This document shows, piece by piece, positions 39,469 to 46,686 of a stretch of DNA of 64,000 nt (its first letter is position 1; each line of letters starts with the position of its first letter). The notes under the pieces are model-generated. The model was given only the letters and a program-made list of their open reading frames with translations. It was not told where the DNA came from and made no database searches. The stretch comes from a virus: positions 24,925 through 88,924 of the IMG/VR virus record IMGVR_UViG_3300034106_006471; one strand, 5' to 3'. The position numbers were made by a program, and so were the translations under genes.

Positions 39469-39500
39469 CTATTTAGGCCCTTATGACAGATTAAGCCGGA

Positions 39501-39875
39501 TCAGAAAGCAACAGTCTCTGTACTTTCGGTTTTATTGGTCTTGGAGAGCTTAGTAATCTTAGAAAAATTATTAACTCTTACCTTTAAACTACTATGCTTA
39601 ACACCATCTTTTTCCCAGCTATCGTTCCTTAGAGATCCTTCTATCATTACTAAATCACCCTTTTTAAAAGAAGAACCAATAACCTCAGCACCTGTATCCC
39701 AAGCTTCGCAATTAATAAAAGAAGTAATCTTATCTTTTTCTCCGTTAGCCTTTGTATACTCCCTTGACGTAGCAACAGTAAAGTTTACTACCGAAGTTTG
39801 CTTGCCATTACTATTAATGACTCTAACTTCTGGATCACGAGCAAGATTACCCTTAATCAATGTAATATTCATCAT
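39501..39875 (-). CDS. ssb: Single-stranded DNA-binding protein
   Basis: 124 aa. The start is set by AAGGAG at 39882-39887 and the ATG at 39875; a second ATG follows directly. MNITLIKGNLARDPEVR, SVVNFTVATSREY, SFINCEAWDTGAEVI and KGDLVMIEGSLRNDSW are the classic OB-fold SSB strands. The tail after the OB fold is only about 15 residues and ends TESTETVAF, so it is not the DDDIPF-type tip of bacterial SSBs, though it is acidic and ends in Phe. It protects single strands during phage replication. It has its own promoter-like sequence upstream and a terminator downstream, so it is probably a separate transcription unit. Confidence 0.95.
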   Translation of the reverse strand: MMNITLIKGNLARDPEVRVINSNGKQTSVVNFTVATSREYTKANGEKDKITSFINCEAWDTGAEVIGSSFKKGDLVMIEGSLRNDSWEKDGVKHSSLKVRVNNFSKITKLSKTNKTESTETVAF

Positions 39876-39918
39876 ACAAATCTCCTTAAGTTCAAATTTA
39901 ATATCCAACCACCGACTT

Positions 39919-39946
39919 ATAATAGTTTGAGGAGGCCAAGAGTCAA
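39919..39946 (-). promoter_or_regulatory. Sigma-70-like promoter for ssb
   Basis: On the - strand, TTGACT (39946-39941), a 16-nt spacer, then TATTATAA (39924-39917). It lies 43 nt upstream of the ssb start codon. The -35 overlaps the last codons of the polymerase fragment. The same arrangement recurs upstream of the dCMP deaminase gene. Confidence 0.6.
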
Positions 39947-41067
39947 GATAAGGGAACAAAACACTTTTCCACTATAAAACCATCCTTGGACTTTGCTCTA
40001 CTTCCAGAAAAAACCAGAATATTTTCTTCAAATAAATGATGTTTATATTTTTGATAGGTTTCAGGAAATAATATAACCGAATCTAAACTACCTGTCTGAT
40101 CCTCTACTGTCAAAAAAGCCATCTCTTGACCAGGAGTTTTTCCGGTTTTAGTTTTGATAGCATTAATATAAGTTATTTCGCCAGCAAGTAAGATTTTTTG
40201 ATTAATATTAGAATGTTTAAAATCTCTACATGTACTATTGGTCATACTAATATCATAAGAGTCTAATTTAGAACAAGATATAGCAGTTCCCAGGTACGCC
40301 GCTTCGTTATCTGCTAACCATTCCACCTTATCTATTAAAGAATACGGTGGACTAATATATGTCTGTAAAAGATCTTGTATAATAAGTTTTCTATTTTTAT
40401 TTACTTTTGTATGATTAATTAATAAATTTAAACAATCCTTGAGCGTAGTTTTATTACTAATTAATATTGGTTTTAAATAATCAATTTCTTTGGTGGTTAA
40501 AGAGGATGATATTTCAAAATCAAATAATATTTCTGTTCTATTTTTGCCAAAATAGTCTATAGCTCCGCAACTAATAATTGCTTTAGATGAAGAAGAATTT
40601 ATTTTATGTAAAACCCCAAATAGCATTTGTAAATAATTCATTTTTGAAATACTATTATTAGTGTTTAATTCTAATAATTTATTATAAACACTTACTCCTA
40701 AGCCCTTAATATCTGTTAATCCAAAATATATTTTATTATTTTTGATTTCAAAAAGCTTATTCATTAATCTTAAATCAGGTAAACATATACTAATATCCAT
40801 CTCATTAGCATTTTTTACCAATTGTTTTATTTCTTGCTGAGGATCGACTTTGTCTTTAGCAAATCTAAGATAAGAGCAAAAAAAGGCTTGAGGAAAATGG
40901 GCTTTAGTATATGCAGATAAGTAGGCATTCATAGCATAGCTAACGCCATGAGAGTTAGAGGTGGCTATTCCATTACCAAAGAATAAATGCTGATTAGACT
41001 TAACTTCAATATCTACTGTTGGTTTTATTCCAACTTTCTCGATTTTTGTAATTTTTCTCGCTATCAC
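39943..41067 (-). CDS. dnaE: DNA polymerase III alpha, C-terminal fragment fused to C-terminal intein half
   Basis: 374 aa, starting at GTG 41067 (AAGGA 8 nt upstream) that overlaps the stop of the homing endonuclease. Residues 1-38 are a C-terminal split-intein half ending FFGNGIATSN, with the terminal Asn as expected; residue 39 is Ser, the first residue of the C-extein. The extein starts SHGVSYAMNAYLSAYTKAHF, matching the conserved SHa.sYa..sY..AylKahyP of DnaE. HhH-like and OB-fold regions follow (ILLAGEITYINAIKTKTGK, AFLTVEDQTGSLDSVIF-type strands). With the other fragments the spliced polymerase would be about 1161 residues, close to a normal bacterial DnaE. Confidence 0.9.
   Translation of the reverse strand: MIARKITKIEKVGIKPTVDIEVKSNQHLFFGNGIATSNSHGVSYAMNAYLSAYTKAHFPQAFFCSYLRFAKDKVDPQQEIKQLVKNANEMDISICLPDLRLMNKLFEIKNNKIYFGLTDIKGLGVSVYNKLLELNTNNSISKMNYLQMLFGVLHKINSSSSKAIISCGAIDYFGKNRTEILFDFEISSSLTTKEIDYLKPILISNKTTLKDCLNLLINHTKVNKNRKLIIQDLLQTYISPPYSLIDKVEWLADNEAAYLGTAISCSKLDSYDISMTNSTCRDFKHSNINQKILLAGEITYINAIKTKTGKTPGQEMAFLTVEDQTGSLDSVILFPETYQKYKHHLFEENILVFSGSRAKSKDGFIVEKCFVPLS
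40954..41067 (-). other. Split intein, C-terminal half (Int-C, 38 residues)
   Basis: Residues 1-38 of the C-terminal polymerase fragment. The pattern KPTVDIEVKSNQHLFFGNGI matches intein block F; the end ATSN then Ser matches block G, except that the usual His before the terminal Asn is Ser. The Ser+1 codon is at 40951-40953. The partner half lies about 0.9 kb upstream. Confidence 0.9.
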
Positions 41068-41960
41068 TGTTTTTTCCTTAAATAATTTTTTCTAGCTTGA
41101 ATTGTTGCTAGGTTTCTGTTTGGAAGCATGGGTACTAGATTTTTTGTTTGTCTTTCATTAATATGTTTCAATATAATAGCATCTTCTTTTTCGGTCCAAA
41201 ACTTATAATCTGAACTGATTTCTAAAAATTTATCATATTTTCTTTGTAGTTTAAAGGTGGCATCTTTATATATAACATCAAACAACTTGATGCAGTCTGT
41301 TTGACAGAACTTAAGTTCATAGTATTTTTTCTTTATTTTTTTAACATTGCCAAATCCTAAATAGTTATGAATATCATCTAAAATCTGTTTGGATACAGAC
41401 ACTATATTGGCATAGTAATAGTCTTTGCCTCTACGATGAAAATTCGTTTTCCATATCGACCCATCTCCATCAAAAAATCCACGAATAAAATGACTTATGT
41501 ATTTCTTGGGCATCTTTGGTAATTTTAGATTAAATGTTTTATTATGATCTATACCTAATTTAATTAATTTTTTGTGTATTTTTTTGGAAAATATACATAT
41601 TTGGCATTTATCTTTTGATACTCTGATTTTAGATTCTGTAGATATTTTATCTCTAATGTACTCTAGCATGGCTATGTCTTTTATGTGTATTCCAATAGTA
41701 ATATATGGTCTTTTTTCCCAAACATGGCCGTCTGATGCGATAAAACCTAGACAATAAGCTAGATCTATGGACCACTTAGTAAAAAATTTATCATTGGCAA
41801 AATATTTTATTTGAGCCCCACTGGATTTTTTAGGAATTCCATACTTTTCTATATAATTAAGAACAGTCGTTCTTCCAATATTTTTTATTTTGGATATTTG
41901 TATAGATCCAAGATTTTGAATAACATATAAATTATATAGTTCATTCTTATCAATTAACAT
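41064..41960 (-). CDS. Free-standing LAGLIDADG homing endonuclease between intein halves
   Basis: 298 aa. Residues about 1-60 have a helix-turn-helix (SIQISKIKNIGRTTVLNYIEKYGIP). Two LAGLIDADG-type helices follow: LAYCLGFIASDGHV (about 68-81) and FIRGFFDGDGSI (about 157-168), each ending in the catalytic acidic residue. The last 50 residues (FWTEKEDAIILKHI, LPNRNLATIQARKNYLRK) look like a Myb/SANT-type DNA-binding domain. It has no protein-splicing motifs, so it is a separate enzyme rather than an intein-embedded one. Its stop overlaps the GTG of the Int-C gene. It probably cuts an uninterrupted polymerase allele and so spreads this locus. Confidence 0.9.
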   Translation of the reverse strand: MLIDKNELYNLYVIQNLGSIQISKIKNIGRTTVLNYIEKYGIPKKSSGAQIKYFANDKFFTKWSIDLAYCLGFIASDGHVWEKRPYITIGIHIKDIAMLEYIRDKISTESKIRVSKDKCQICIFSKKIHKKLIKLGIDHNKTFNLKLPKMPKKYISHFIRGFFDGDGSIWKTNFHRRGKDYYYANIVSVSKQILDDIHNYLGFGNVKKIKKKYYELKFCQTDCIKLFDVIYKDATFKLQRKYDKFLEISSDYKFWTEKEDAIILKHINERQTKNLVPMLPNRNLATIQARKNYLRKKQ

Positions 41961-41996
41961 AAATTACACTGTAAATAGTTTAATAAATATCATAAT

Positions 41997-42293
41997 CTAT
42001 GCTATACACATAATTTCTAAATTGTTAAGCAAAATTTCTGATAATGGATGAACTTTATTATCGGAACATAAAAATTTATGCTCCATAGTACAGGTTATAT
42101 GATTTCCATTATCTAATGTTATTTTAAAGACTTCTTGTTTACCATGATCATATTTCTTAATAACTTCAATATATTTATTTTCATATGTATTGTCATTACT
42201 TATTACTGGAGAAAGTATCTTTTCTCCTATGTCTAGATCTTTTATTGTTTTTTCTCCTGATTCAGTCAGCACCACAGTTTCTTCTAGTATCGA
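41997..42293 (-). other. Split intein, N-terminal half (Int-N, 98 residues)
   Basis: The Ser1 codon is at 42291-42293, directly after FNK of the polymerase. Block A (SILEETVVLTESGEKTIKDL) and block B (GNHITCTMEH, with the Thr and His expected at the catalytic site) are visible. The insertion point is the conserved FNK/SH site of DnaE. Ser instead of Cys at position 1 is less common but known among inteins. Confidence 0.9.
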
Positions 42294-42890
42294 CTTATTA
42301 AAACTGTACCTTTGACTTTTTTCGATCCATCCGAATATTTCCTGGGCATCATTATCATTAACAATATTTTGTTTTTTACATCCCTCTAAAAATTTACCTT
42401 TAATTTCCGCCATAAGCTTAACATCTTTTTTTCCAATGCTTTTTCTTAAAGTATCGCTTTCTGATAATGTGAAACCAGCAATATCTTTTGCTATTTGTAT
42501 AGCTTGTTCTTGGTAAATTAATTCGCCAAGAGTTCCACTCAGGATAGGCTCTAAAGATGGATGAAAATAATCTATACTTTCATTATGATTTTTTCTATCT
42601 ATATAGTGATTTGTAACGCTTTTACCGTCTCTAATAGCTTCTAATGATCCTGGCCTTAAAATAGAAATCAAAGCAGACAACTGCTCCATATTTTCTGGTT
42701 TAAGTTTTTTGGCAATACTTTGACCCAAACGACTTTCTAGCTGAAATACTCCCTTAGTATTTCCATCTGAAATTAGATTCCATGTTTTTTTACAATTTAA
42801 ATTAATATTCTCTATTTTAGGAGAAAATATAATTCTATTGTCTTCAACACAAGAAAAAGAACAACCACAATCAAACTGTAATTTAGTCAT
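41997..42890 (-). CDS. dnaE: DNA polymerase III alpha, middle fragment fused to N-terminal intein half
   Basis: 297 aa. Residues 1-199 are the DnaE fingers-region segment: GNTKGVFQLESRLGQS, LISILRPGSLEAI, GELIYQEQAIQIAKDIAGFT, LRKSIGKKD and the end SQRYSFNK. The N-terminus has a Cys cluster (FDCGCSFSC). Residues 200-297 are a split-intein N-terminal half beginning with Ser (SILEETVVL). The protein therefore cannot complete the polymerase by itself: it needs trans-splicing to the Int-C fragment. The start ATG overlaps the stop of the upstream exonuclease gene. Confidence 0.9.
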   Translation of the reverse strand: MTKLQFDCGCSFSCVEDNRIIFSPKIENINLNCKKTWNLISDGNTKGVFQLESRLGQSIAKKLKPENMEQLSALISILRPGSLEAIRDGKSVTNHYIDRKNHNESIDYFHPSLEPILSGTLGELIYQEQAIQIAKDIAGFTLSESDTLRKSIGKKDVKLMAEIKGKFLEGCKKQNIVNDNDAQEIFGWIEKSQRYSFNKSILEETVVLTESGEKTIKDLDIGEKILSPVISNDNTYENKYIEVIKKYDHGKQEVFKITLDNGNHITCTMEHKFLCSDNKVHPLSEILLNNLEIMCIA

Positions 42891-43585
42891 TATGAGTTAA
42901 CAAAAGATCCTTTAAATTTAATTTTTTGACTTAAATTTCTGTGCAATCTTAAAAATCTAACAGCTATTTCTGCTGTGTCTTTTACATCTTTTAAAGCATC
43001 ATGAGAACCGTCTTTATTAATGCCTAAATAATCTCTTAAATTATCTAGAGTATAGTTTTTAAGTTCATTGTTTCCCTCAAACCAATAAAAGATAACATTC
43101 ATTATATCTAATATGTCTCTAGGATAGAATAATGATGATGACCCTTCTTTATTTAAGTTGCCATATTTTTTACTTAACCTATTGACTATCTTCATATCAA
43201 AGCGATTAATATTATATCCAGATGCTATTGGAGCACTAAAAAAACTCTTTTTGGTATTTCTGGTATGATACATATCTAAGTAGGATACAAATCTTTCCCA
43301 CCCATTTTTTTGATCTGGATAATTTTTCCAAGAAGAAAGAATATCTTCTTTAGAACATCCTCTAACTTTTGAATGAAAATCTAAAACATCACTGTCCCCA
43401 TAAGCATAGCTTTCATTATCTATTAATTTTTCTGGTTTTAAATTAATATTAAATTCTGAATCTGGTATAACTTCTAATTTTAGAGGGTCTACCATAATAG
43501 CAGCAATTTGAACGGGACTGCATGATTCTGGATCGGACCCGTCTGTTTCCATATCAAAAACACAAATTTTTTGTAGATTAGGCAT
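42890..43585 (-). CDS. DnaQ-like 3'-5' exonuclease (proofreading subunit)
   Basis: 231 aa. ExoI motif FDMETDGSDPE (residues 9-19) carries the Asp and Glu metal ligands. A middle motif includes SGYNINRFDMKIV, and ExoIII is HDALKDVKDTAEI (about 194-206) with the His and Asp of the DEDDh class. This is the family of DnaQ/epsilon proofreading nucleases that work with DnaE. The gene sits between two polymerase fragments, overlapping the 59-aa gene upstream and the middle fragment downstream, which supports a shared complex. Confidence 0.9.
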   Translation of the reverse strand: MPNLQKICVFDMETDGSDPESCSPVQIAAIMVDPLKLEVIPDSEFNINLKPEKLIDNESYAYGDSDVLDFHSKVRGCSKEDILSSWKNYPDQKNGWERFVSYLDMYHTRNTKKSFFSAPIASGYNINRFDMKIVNRLSKKYGNLNKEGSSSLFYPRDILDIMNVIFYWFEGNNELKNYTLDNLRDYLGINKDGSHDALKDVKDTAEIAVRFLRLHRNLSQKIKFKGSFVNS

Positions 43586-43757
43586 TTATTCCTACTTCCG
43601 ATGATGGTTGAACGTAAATGGTATTATTACTATCATTAGCCGAGCAGGCATTTACTGTTTTGCAACAACTTACTCTAACGTCGTTGATTTTAATAAACTC
43701 TTGACCATTCAATGTGAATCTATCTCCTACCGCTAGTTCTGAAAATACTTTATTCAT
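43578..43757 (-). CDS. Small conserved-type phage protein (59 aa)
   Basis: This gene is below the usual ORF cut-off. ATG 43757 overlaps the stop of the first polymerase fragment (ATGA), and its own stop overlaps the exonuclease start region, so it is coupled at both ends. The sequence begins MNKVFSELAVGDRFTLNGQE and continues FIKINDVRVSCCKTVNAC, a short beta-rich pattern (F..L.vG..F..NG..y.Ki) seen in small phage proteins of unknown role. The two adjacent cysteines are notable. Function unknown; a binding partner of the polymerase or exonuclease is a guess. Confidence 0.7.
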   Translation of the reverse strand: MNKVFSELAVGDRFTLNGQEFIKINDVRVSCCKTVNACSANDSNNTIYVQPSSEVGINA

Positions 43758-45634
43758 AATTCTACTCCTTGATTATATAGTATATCTGAAATATGCATAG
43801 CTTTATCTAGAAATGCTAATCCTAGTATATCAAATTTAATAACTCCCAAAGCTTCTAAGTCATTCATTTCCATGCCTGCGATCATTTGTTGATTTTTATT
43901 ATCATATATCATAGGACAAATATCTTCTAGATTATCTCTAGATATTACTACACCAGCAGCATGTTTTGATTGATTAGACTTGGTGCCTTCTAATCTTATA
44001 GCTTGTTCGAATCTTTTTGCAAGCGGACCTTCTAGTGTCTCATCTTCTTTTAAAGAACACCACTCTTTTAGCTTATCTGAACTATTTTCTAGAGCCCATC
44101 TAATAATACTAGATTCGCCTGTTTCTTCTTTCATTTCTTGAAGCTCGTCTGCAATTTTAGCTTCGTCAGGTATATTTTTGGTTATTTTATTCATCTCTTC
44201 AAAACTAATATTGCCATACACTCTTAAAACTTCTTTTAAAGCCCCTCTTCCTTTCATTGTATTAAAAGTTAACATTTGTGCTACTTTTTTAGTTCCATAT
44301 TTATTTTTGATATAATCAATAACATAATCTCTTTTATTAATAGGAACGTCTATATCTATATCTGGTAGAGATACTCTGTCTTTGGAGGATCTACCAATAT
44401 TGTAAAATCTTTCAAAAATTAGATGATAAGGAATAGGATTTACTCCAGTTATTCCTATAAGATATGAAACTAAACAACCGGCCGCACTTCCTCGACCAAC
44501 TCCAGCCAACCAATTATTTTTCTTTACATAATCAACAATATCCTGAACTATTAAAAAATAACTACTTAAACCAGCACCCTGAAGAACTTCTAGTTCATGT
44601 TTTATTCTATCTACATAAATATTTTCATCTTCTTTAGATACTTTATTTTGAATTTTATCTCTCCAGCCATTTCTACATAATTGTCTTAGATATTGATCAG
44701 GATCATATCCTTCCGGACAATCAAAAGTTGGAAGAACTGGTCTGCTAGTAATATCATAATTTTCGCATAAGCTATCTACAAAATTGGTATTTTCTAATTC
44801 TTCTTCTGTATGAATATCTAGCATTTCTTGAAAAGAAGGAATATGATACTTATCTGATTTAAAAAAGCATCCCATGGGTGCTGATTCGTCATTTAATATT
44901 TTTCTATTAACTTCTGGTAATGTTAATTTTAAATTATTACATATTAATACTCTTTGATCAACAGCATCTTCGCTTTCACAATAATGAGCATCTGGGGTTG
45001 CTATTAATTTTGTTTGTGTTTTTTGACCTATAGTTCTAATTAAGTTTGTTAAAGCAATTTGATCAGCATTGTGTTCTTGGTCTATTAATTGAGATTCTAA
45101 AAAGAAATTATCATTTCCAAACATACCTTTCATTTTACTAACAAATTCGCAGCCTAAATGAATAGGACTATCAGCTTTATGTAGTAGATTAGACAGTGAT
45201 GAACCTAAATGGCCACAGAAACCAATAATATTACCATCTAAAAGAGTTGATAAAGTATCAAAATCCAATCTTGGCTTATGATAGAACCTATCAGGATTAT
45301 TGCTAGCAGATATTATTTTTATTAAAGTTTTCCATCCATTATAGTTTTTAGCAAGTAGTAAAAAATGAGACAGTTGACTATTTTCTTTAGTTTTTAGTGT
45401 TGAGTTTTGATCACATACATATATTTCACAGCCTAATATTGGTTTAATTCCTGCTTTTTTCATATGAGAATAAAATTGCACAGCACCGCTAATAGAGCCG
45501 TGATCAGTTAGAGCACAAGAAGTTGCTCCTATTTTTGCACATCTAGCAGCTATTTGTGCTGGCTTACTTAAGCCATCTAGCAACGAGAAGTGGGAGTGTA
45601 CATGTAGGGGCGTGTATTTGCCTCCTGTTGTCAT
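43754..45634 (-). CDS. dnaE: DNA polymerase III alpha, N-terminal fragment (PHP and palm)
   Basis: 626 aa. The PHP domain is at the N-terminus (LHVHSHFSLLDG, ALTDHGSISGAV, KPILGCEIYV). The polymerase core includes GRGSAAGCLVSYLIGITG, the catalytic Asp pair in PDIDIDV (about 424-430) and the third Asp in IKFDILGL (about 600). Thus all three catalytic acids are on this piece, which ends soon after at ILYNQGVEL; the fingers, HhH and OB parts lie on two other genes. There is no intein at this end, so the first two pieces must assemble by contact. AAAGG precedes the ATG. Confidence 0.95.
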   Translation of the reverse strand: MTTGGKYTPLHVHSHFSLLDGLSKPAQIAARCAKIGATSCALTDHGSISGAVQFYSHMKKAGIKPILGCEIYVCDQNSTLKTKENSQLSHFLLLAKNYNGWKTLIKIISASNNPDRFYHKPRLDFDTLSTLLDGNIIGFCGHLGSSLSNLLHKADSPIHLGCEFVSKMKGMFGNDNFFLESQLIDQEHNADQIALTNLIRTIGQKTQTKLIATPDAHYCESEDAVDQRVLICNNLKLTLPEVNRKILNDESAPMGCFFKSDKYHIPSFQEMLDIHTEEELENTNFVDSLCENYDITSRPVLPTFDCPEGYDPDQYLRQLCRNGWRDKIQNKVSKEDENIYVDRIKHELEVLQGAGLSSYFLIVQDIVDYVKKNNWLAGVGRGSAAGCLVSYLIGITGVNPIPYHLIFERFYNIGRSSKDRVSLPDIDIDVPINKRDYVIDYIKNKYGTKKVAQMLTFNTMKGRGALKEVLRVYGNISFEEMNKITKNIPDEAKIADELQEMKEETGESSIIRWALENSSDKLKEWCSLKEDETLEGPLAKRFEQAIRLEGTKSNQSKHAAGVVISRDNLEDICPMIYDNKNQQMIAGMEMNDLEALGVIKFDILGLAFLDKAMHISDILYNQGVEL

Positions 45635-45645
45635 TTTTTAAACCT

Positions 45646-46686
45646 TTAGTGTGTTGAGCCAGGTGATTTATAAAACCCGACAGAGTGATTTGGTGCGCTA
45701 TAGTTTTGTACCACATGATCCATACCATGCAACTCTATTTCGTGACGAATTTGTTCACATTTTGTCATATGTTTACCAAATGGAGTAATTTGATTATCTC
45801 TATATTCAATAATTGGGTCTATATTTGTATTTTCAAAAGTAGTTTTACCAAAATGACACAATTTGGTACACATCCAACATTTATTTAGTTTAGGCTTTTT
45901 AACATTTTTTATAAGCTCAAATTTTTGTCGTAACATATCCTCCGTGCTTGCTAAATCTTTTTTATCAAAACAAATAGAAAATGGGCCACCGTCATTTACA
46001 AAATATATAGAAAAAATAATATGTTCTATTTCAGGATATAATTTACTAATAGCATAATGATAAATTTTTAATTGAGGATCTTTTTCTAATTTTTCTATTG
46101 TTTTTTCTTCTCCAGTAGCCCAGTCCAATCTTCTTCCAGTTTTCCAGTCTATGATTTCAATAGTTTTATTATTTGCCAGTGTGATTAAGTCTATTGTTCC
46201 TTTTAAGGCCAAATTACCAGATATTTCTCCAGACGGAGTTTTGAAGTTGTATTGGGCCCACTTCTTATCTATTGTAAAATCAAAATGCTGCTCAGGAGAA
46301 ATTATTTGTCTGTTTCTCGGATCAAACATACCATTATTAAATTCTATAGCTTTATAGACCCAACTATGACAATCTTTGTAGTCTTTATTAGTCCAATTAT
46401 GGTGACTATTAGCTGTTGAGTAGTAGTCGTATACTTTTTTAATAATAGAATCTAAACTATATGATGAACAACTAATTTTACCTACTACATCATCTTGGAT
46501 AAAATCTATATTGTCCTGTTGAGCTTTTTTGATTACTGCAAGTATTTCTAAAATTTTATGAACAGTTGTCCCTTTGTCTGCTTTAAGGCCGCTTGGACCT
46601 CTCCAGCCTAAAACATACTCGATAAAATATTGCTGTTCACAAAGAGAATGAGTATTGTACGAAGAGCTTCTGAAATATGTAGTAAT
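45646..46686 (-). CDS. PD-(D/E)XK nuclease (Cas4/RecB-like) with non-standard start
   Basis: About 346 aa. The frame extends 119 codons upstream of the first ATG (46329) and stays in the same reading frame: it contains TYFRSSSYNTHSLCEQQYFI and YVLGWRGPSGLKADKGTTVH, the conserved N-terminal block of RecB/Cas4-like phage nucleases. Just upstream is a stop, so the only possible starts are ATT (46686) or ATA (46689), with AAGGA nearby and TAATT overlapping the previous stop. The nuclease core is GTIDLI followed by IEIIDWKTG (about 162-180). A Cys cluster (CWMCTKLC, about 267-282) may hold zinc or an Fe-S cluster. Likely DNA-end processing in recombination. Confidence 0.8.
   Translation of the reverse strand: MTTYFRSSSYNTHSLCEQQYFIEYVLGWRGPSGLKADKGTTVHKILEILAVIKKAQQDNIDFIQDDVVGKISCSSYSLDSIIKKVYDYYSTANSHHNWTNKDYKDCHSWVYKAIEFNNGMFDPRNRQIISPEQHFDFTIDKKWAQYNFKTPSGEISGNLALKGTIDLITLANNKTIEIIDWKTGRRLDWATGEEKTIEKLEKDPQLKIYHYAISKLYPEIEHIIFSIYFVNDGGPFSICFDKKDLASTEDMLRQKFELIKNVKKPKLNKCWMCTKLCHFGKTTFENTNIDPIIEYRDNQITPFGKHMTKCEQIRHEIELHGMDHVVQNYSAPNHSVGFYKSPGSTH

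Follow-up and report, generated by a model that had tools for sequence, protein, structure and literature searches.

A DnaE replicase cut between palm and fingers, with a probable proofreading exonuclease gene in the gap, in a clade of large environmental phages

The DNA analyzed here (the window, 64,000 nucleotides) is part of the 88.9-kb viral record IMGVR_UViG_3300034106_006471 (G000, C1:24925-88924), and it encodes the C-family replicase DnaE in pieces. A first gene, F1, ends behind the palm, the fingers begin on a separate gene, F2, and the gap between them holds a gene for a 59-residue protein, sm59, and a gene for a DEDDh 3'-5' exonuclease, EXO. We found F1 and F2 as separate open reading frames (ORFs) with EXO in the gap in 222 of 222 related loci and fused in none. 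As proposed in the initial annotation of this region, the replicase alpha subunit is probably assembled non-covalently from F1 and F2, together with the C-terminal part F3 where this is a gene of its own, and EXO would serve as its proofreader. Such an assembly is the best explanation because neither an intein nor an intron was found at the junction, the relative reading frames vary between relatives, the active site is invariant, and no alternative polymerase was detected in 16 large records.

The position of the break could be defined precisely. The initial annotation had assigned the PHP domain and all three catalytic aspartates to the first fragment and had let it end just after the third, and both statements hold: Pfam assigns F1 residues 10-182 to PHP and residues 314-605 to DNA_pol3_alpha, structure matching relates F1 to Pol III alpha structures, and the palm aspartates are D425 and D427 (motif PDIDID, in which D429 is likewise invariant) and D602 (motif KFDILG). 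F1 stops at residue 626, 24 residues past the third aspartate, in the helix following the palm strand, and the fingers open the new gene F2 at position 42890, with sm59 and EXO filling the gap as had been described. Alignment with intact DnaEs shows that F2 restarts ahead of the fingers, at a point where the intact proteins carry a linker of variable length, and that the DnaE core sequence is complete across the cut, with none of it missing. At its N-terminus, F2 has, in addition, about 25 residues that precede the fingers and include a Cys-Gly-Cys motif; this extension is absent from intact DnaEs and present in most relatives, and L065, L067, and L069, which are among the most distant members, lack it. 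Taken over all fragments, PHP followed by a palm with three aspartates, and fingers, helix-hairpin-helix (HHH), and OB domains identify the protein as a C-family DnaE. The genes F1, sm59, EXO, and F2 overlap by ATGA, by 8 nucleotides, and by 1 nucleotide, respectively, as in translationally coupled operons.

About 235 loci were gathered by scanning viral sequences four times and genomes once, with each scan limited to its 80 best loci, and profiles built from the first loci detected F1 and F2 together in the 222 loci mentioned above; some of these sit on the same contig, and the number of distinct F1 sequences is 157. The small gene sm59 likewise lies in the gap in 187 of the 222. In phylogenetic trees, the split family is a single clade (100/100 support) set apart by a long branch, and among the retrieved loci, no intact DnaE was found within it, so that the palm-fingers break is general in the family. 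As the arrangement recurs in all 222 loci, both chance and an assembly artefact can be dismissed as its source. The initial annotation itself had raised the possibility of an artefact, and in a single genome, a broken polymerase would indeed look alike; however, the loci come from many separate assemblies, the Asp, Lys, Arg, and Ser residues checked in the palm of F1 do not vary in 168 of 168 proteins, and no other polymerase was found in large records of the family. We therefore regard a decayed, non-functional polymerase or an assembly artefact as extremely improbable.

A covalent connection of F1 and F2 would be an obvious alternative, by a cryptic split intein, by an intron, or by programmed frameshifting over sm59 and EXO, since a split intein does exist at another junction of the same polymerase, and group I introns interrupt other phage DnaE genes, as in Bacillus phage KLEB27-3. 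The initial annotation had seen no intein remnant on either side of the break, and the domain searches agree: Pfam detects an intein domain neither in F1 nor at the F2 N-terminus, the sole Hint match, at F2 residues 204-285, belongs to the F2/F3 break, and F1 and F2 do not end in the N- and C-halves that mark a split-intein gene. An intron-interrupted gene is not indicated either, as there is no Rfam match in 39500-46500, and the same search did detect the group I intron of KLEB27-3 as a positive control. The frame of F1 relative to F2 is 0, 1, or 2, depending on the relative, and the junction offsets differ (ORF starts were set mechanically), and hence there is no conserved frameshift or read-through that joins F1 to F2. 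Moreover, conserved in-frame genes occupy the gap in 222 of 222 loci. All of this makes a covalent joining of the two fragments very unlikely.

Non-covalent assembly of a functional enzyme is also in line with the polymerase inventory. In 16 records of 89-244 kb, we found exactly one DnaE palm per record, and neither a family A (PolA) nor a family B (PolB) polymerase. The PHP metal ligands are mostly conserved in F1, with one position changed from Cys to His; at this residue, 142, the split family has His in 154 of 168 proteins vs. Cys in 12 of 13 intact DnaEs, which can be regarded as a family signature. As to the second half, the F2+F3 protein of locus L068 is predicted to fold alone (predicted local distance difference test, pLDDT, 93), and the model matches Pol III alpha.

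From these data, the following picture emerges for the assembly. F1 would contribute PHP, palm, and thumb, and F2 the fingers and, together with F3, also the HHH and OB domains, with F2 and F3 of the window presumably being trans-spliced via their separate split intein. The halves would fold separately, bind each other non-covalently, and complete the active site where palm and fingers meet, and translation from one overlapping operon would favor this association.

The DnaEs of cultured phages are mostly intact at this boundary: a query spanning it matched 1,220 records, of which 1,163 cover 80% or more of the query in a single place, and the match was a single piece in each of the 60 rows viewed. 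The exception found is Rossellomorea phage phiT1 (PV767480; gp20 / gp19 / gp18), whose DnaE is broken in the same palm-fingers loop, around a small gene. This could suggest one ancient split common to phiT1 and the family, with EXO lost or never gained in phiT1, and approximately unbiased (AU) tests do not reject a joint clade (p=0.15). However, the best trees place phiT1 among intact DnaEs, outside the family (98/96 in one tree, 100/100 in another), its F1 is closer to an intact homologue (42.5% identity) than to the F1 of the window (33.6%), and its gap holds an unrelated 49-residue gene and no EXO. The tree thus favors, without proving them, two separate origins of the split, and a single ancient event appears unlikely to us. 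Two further phages whose DnaE spans two genes were considered and set aside: in KLEB27-3, the group I intron lies at a different position, and in phage Jayan, the break lies within the palm.

The D-E-D-H-D active-site residues of EXO are kept in 163-164 of 164 proteins, which classifies it as DEDDh, and in the 16 large records, the F1/F2 gap is the one place where an RNase_T exonuclease occurs. Its C-terminal tail lies outside the nuclease fold and is nevertheless conserved (Phe224 99%, Phe228 97%), also in deep members. In E. coli, the proofreader epsilon docks on the PHP domain of alpha via its tail. Gene position and tail conservation suggest that EXO is the proofreader of the split polymerase, and by analogy with epsilon, it probably docks by this tail. 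Gene position as such is no proof of contact, and EXO might be a mere operon neighbor that does not bind the polymerase; its presence in the gap of every one of the 222 loci, its being the sole RNase_T exonuclease of the large records, and the conserved tail make this doubtful. At the other extreme, EXO could be an obligate assembly subunit whose tail, jointly with sm59 in the loci that have it, links F1 to F2; the polymerase would then be complete only with the proofreader bound. We consider this bridging role improbable; if true, a clade of large phages would have its polymerase activity coupled to fidelity. Among the loci L065, L066, L067, L069, L078, and L080, the PHP ligands are largely gone in L065, L067, and L069, deep members that retain EXO, and in these, EXO may be all that provides proofreading. 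EXO-like exonucleases were also encountered in Bacteroides phages DAC19-23 and SJC03, and these were rejected as parallels; the DAC19 copy adjoins terminase and ligase genes, not DnaE.

Some points weigh against a non-covalent replicase with EXO as its partner, or limit its generality. The scans cover the nearest 80 loci each, and more distant intact members could exist; the 16 large records are perhaps not complete; a fusion of F1 with EXO or of EXO with F2, which would have supported a contact, does not occur among the fetched loci; and the exonuclease is not required in every split DnaE, since phiT1 shows this break and lacks EXO.

Each of 200 loci has a single copy of sm59, the second gene of the gap, and so does each of eight large records. 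The protein is predicted to adopt a small beta-strand fold (a small beta barrel, pLDDT 94) and has a conserved Cys-Cys. Among solved structures, eIF5A/EF-P domains came out on top with a weak match that is not significant (E=0.06), and no sm59 homologue was found in phage records. In distant family members, its position is taken by other small ORFs or by none, and assembly therefore cannot generally depend on sm59; the protein is more plausibly a lineage-specific small accessory. A link to the Cys-Gly-Cys extension of F2 was considered, as the two co-occur in 123-124 loci, but there was no association in phylogenetically independent pairs.

Splitting of phage polymerases as such is already known. 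The catalytic subunit of a C-family polymerase is also encoded by two genes in group 2.2 jumbo phages, where the parts of a minimal Pol III alpha were proposed to reconstitute (Iyer et al. 2021, PMC7824862); however, this enzyme was reported to lack the other Pol III domains, to be encoded by genes at distant positions, and to occur together with a family B polymerase (PMC7824862), whereas the family described here has PHP, HHH, and OB domains and overlapping genes, with no PolB in the 16 records. In T4-like Aeromonas phages, the replicative polymerase is likewise on two genes, the products gp43A and gp43B co-purify, and the polymerase is active, as is a split NrdA (PMC2988022), but gp43 is a family B enzyme, and its split, which is limited to a few phages and not clade-wide, is tied to a homing endonuclease or to an insert that is not translated. 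The OM43 phages MEP401 and MEP402, and most of their group, have a polymerase on two genes with a small gene of unknown function between them (PMC10580990); in this case, the enzyme belongs to family A, the exonuclease domain is within the first part, and the authors suspected an intron (PMC10580990). Fractured DnaE genes with split inteins resemble the F2/F3 break with its free endonuclease gene and differ from the intein-less F1/F2 break, and E. coli Pol III shares the combination of a DnaE with a separate DEDDh proofreader, but its alpha subunit is one chain. We found no description of the family in the literature searched (open-licence papers). What appears to be new is thus a DnaE with PHP, fingers, HHH, and OB domains that is cut at the palm-fingers border clade-wide, with the proofreader gene in the gap, and that is the sole polymerase found. 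C-family replicases have usually been studied as one alpha chain with a separate proofreader, and a widespread family of large environmental phages now appears to depend on a cut alpha. Such a natural multi-piece replicase is a test case for palm-fingers communication, for fragment assembly, and for the part of an exonuclease in assembly. For annotation, it is a warning, as both halves are real genes, though each alone resembles a broken polymerase.

The initial annotation had counted the palm-fingers break as the second one in this polymerase. The break is real, but the order has to be reversed: nearly all family loci encode F2 and F3 in a single ORF of about 520-545 residues, and therefore the split-intein break is confined to few members (L006, L039/L092, L079), whereas the palm-fingers break is clade-wide and old. 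In the window, the whole F2 gene (42890-41997) encodes the fingers and then the intein N-half. The F2/F3 junction, with the free LAGLIDADG endonuclease in its gap, reads FNK|S (intein start) and SN|SHGVSYA, which would place it four residues away from where the split intein of cyanobacterial DnaE is inserted. In L055/L057, L172, L201, and L218, F1 itself is cut again, with a first part that terminates around F1 residue 380 with the N-half of an intein, and DnaE is therefore on three genes in these loci.

Table 1. Features of the polymerase locus (positions within the window).
Feature	Coordinates	Strand	Evidence
PD-(D/E)XK nuclease, upstream neighbor of F1, also upstream in relatives	45646..46329	-	PDDEXK_1 E=3.7e-10
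F1, N-terminal part of DnaE (PHP + palm + thumb, every catalytic Asp), 626 aa	43754..45634	-	Pfam PHP E=2.5e-34; DNA_pol3_alpha E=1.1e-73
sm59, 59-aa gene	43578..43757	-	phrog_2183 (unknown function) E=1.6e-6
EXO, DEDDh 3'-5' exonuclease, 231 aa, conserved C-terminal tail KIKFKGSF	42890..43585	-	RNase_T E=4e-12; phrog_192 DNA polymerase exonuclease subunit E=6.6e-20
F2 fingers, residues 1-200 including N-terminal Cys-Gly-Cys extension	42291..42890	-	DNA_pol3_finger E=2.6e-44; alignment over boundary
Intein N-half ending F2 (other polymerase break)	41997..42290	-	Intein_splicing E=1e-7, F2 residues 206-285; DnaE intein structures matched
LAGLIDADG homing endonuclease, free-standing, between intein halves	41064..41960	-	LAGLIDADG_3 E=4.5e-9
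Intein C-half + F3 (DnaE C-terminal part, HHH + OB)	39943..41067	-	HHH_6 E=1.7e-8; tRNA_anti-codon E=3.8e-5; phrog_405 positions 793-1072
Single-strand DNA-binding protein (SSB), downstream neighbor	39501..39959	-	SSB E=8e-25

All genes of the locus are on the minus strand, in the order PD-(D/E)XK nuclease, F1, sm59, EXO, F2, LAGLIDADG endonuclease, F3, and SSB (Table 1), and genes for a primase (TOPRIM), a DnaB-type helicase, and a dNMP kinase lie upstream. The bacterial-type beta clamp family was not found in eight records (G000-G003, G006-G009). The family members L071-L077 are on contigs of bacterial and archaeal metagenome-assembled genomes assigned to Chitinophagia, Flavobacteriales, Alphaproteobacteria, SAR202, and Lokiarchaeota, and these are probably phage contigs that were binned with them.
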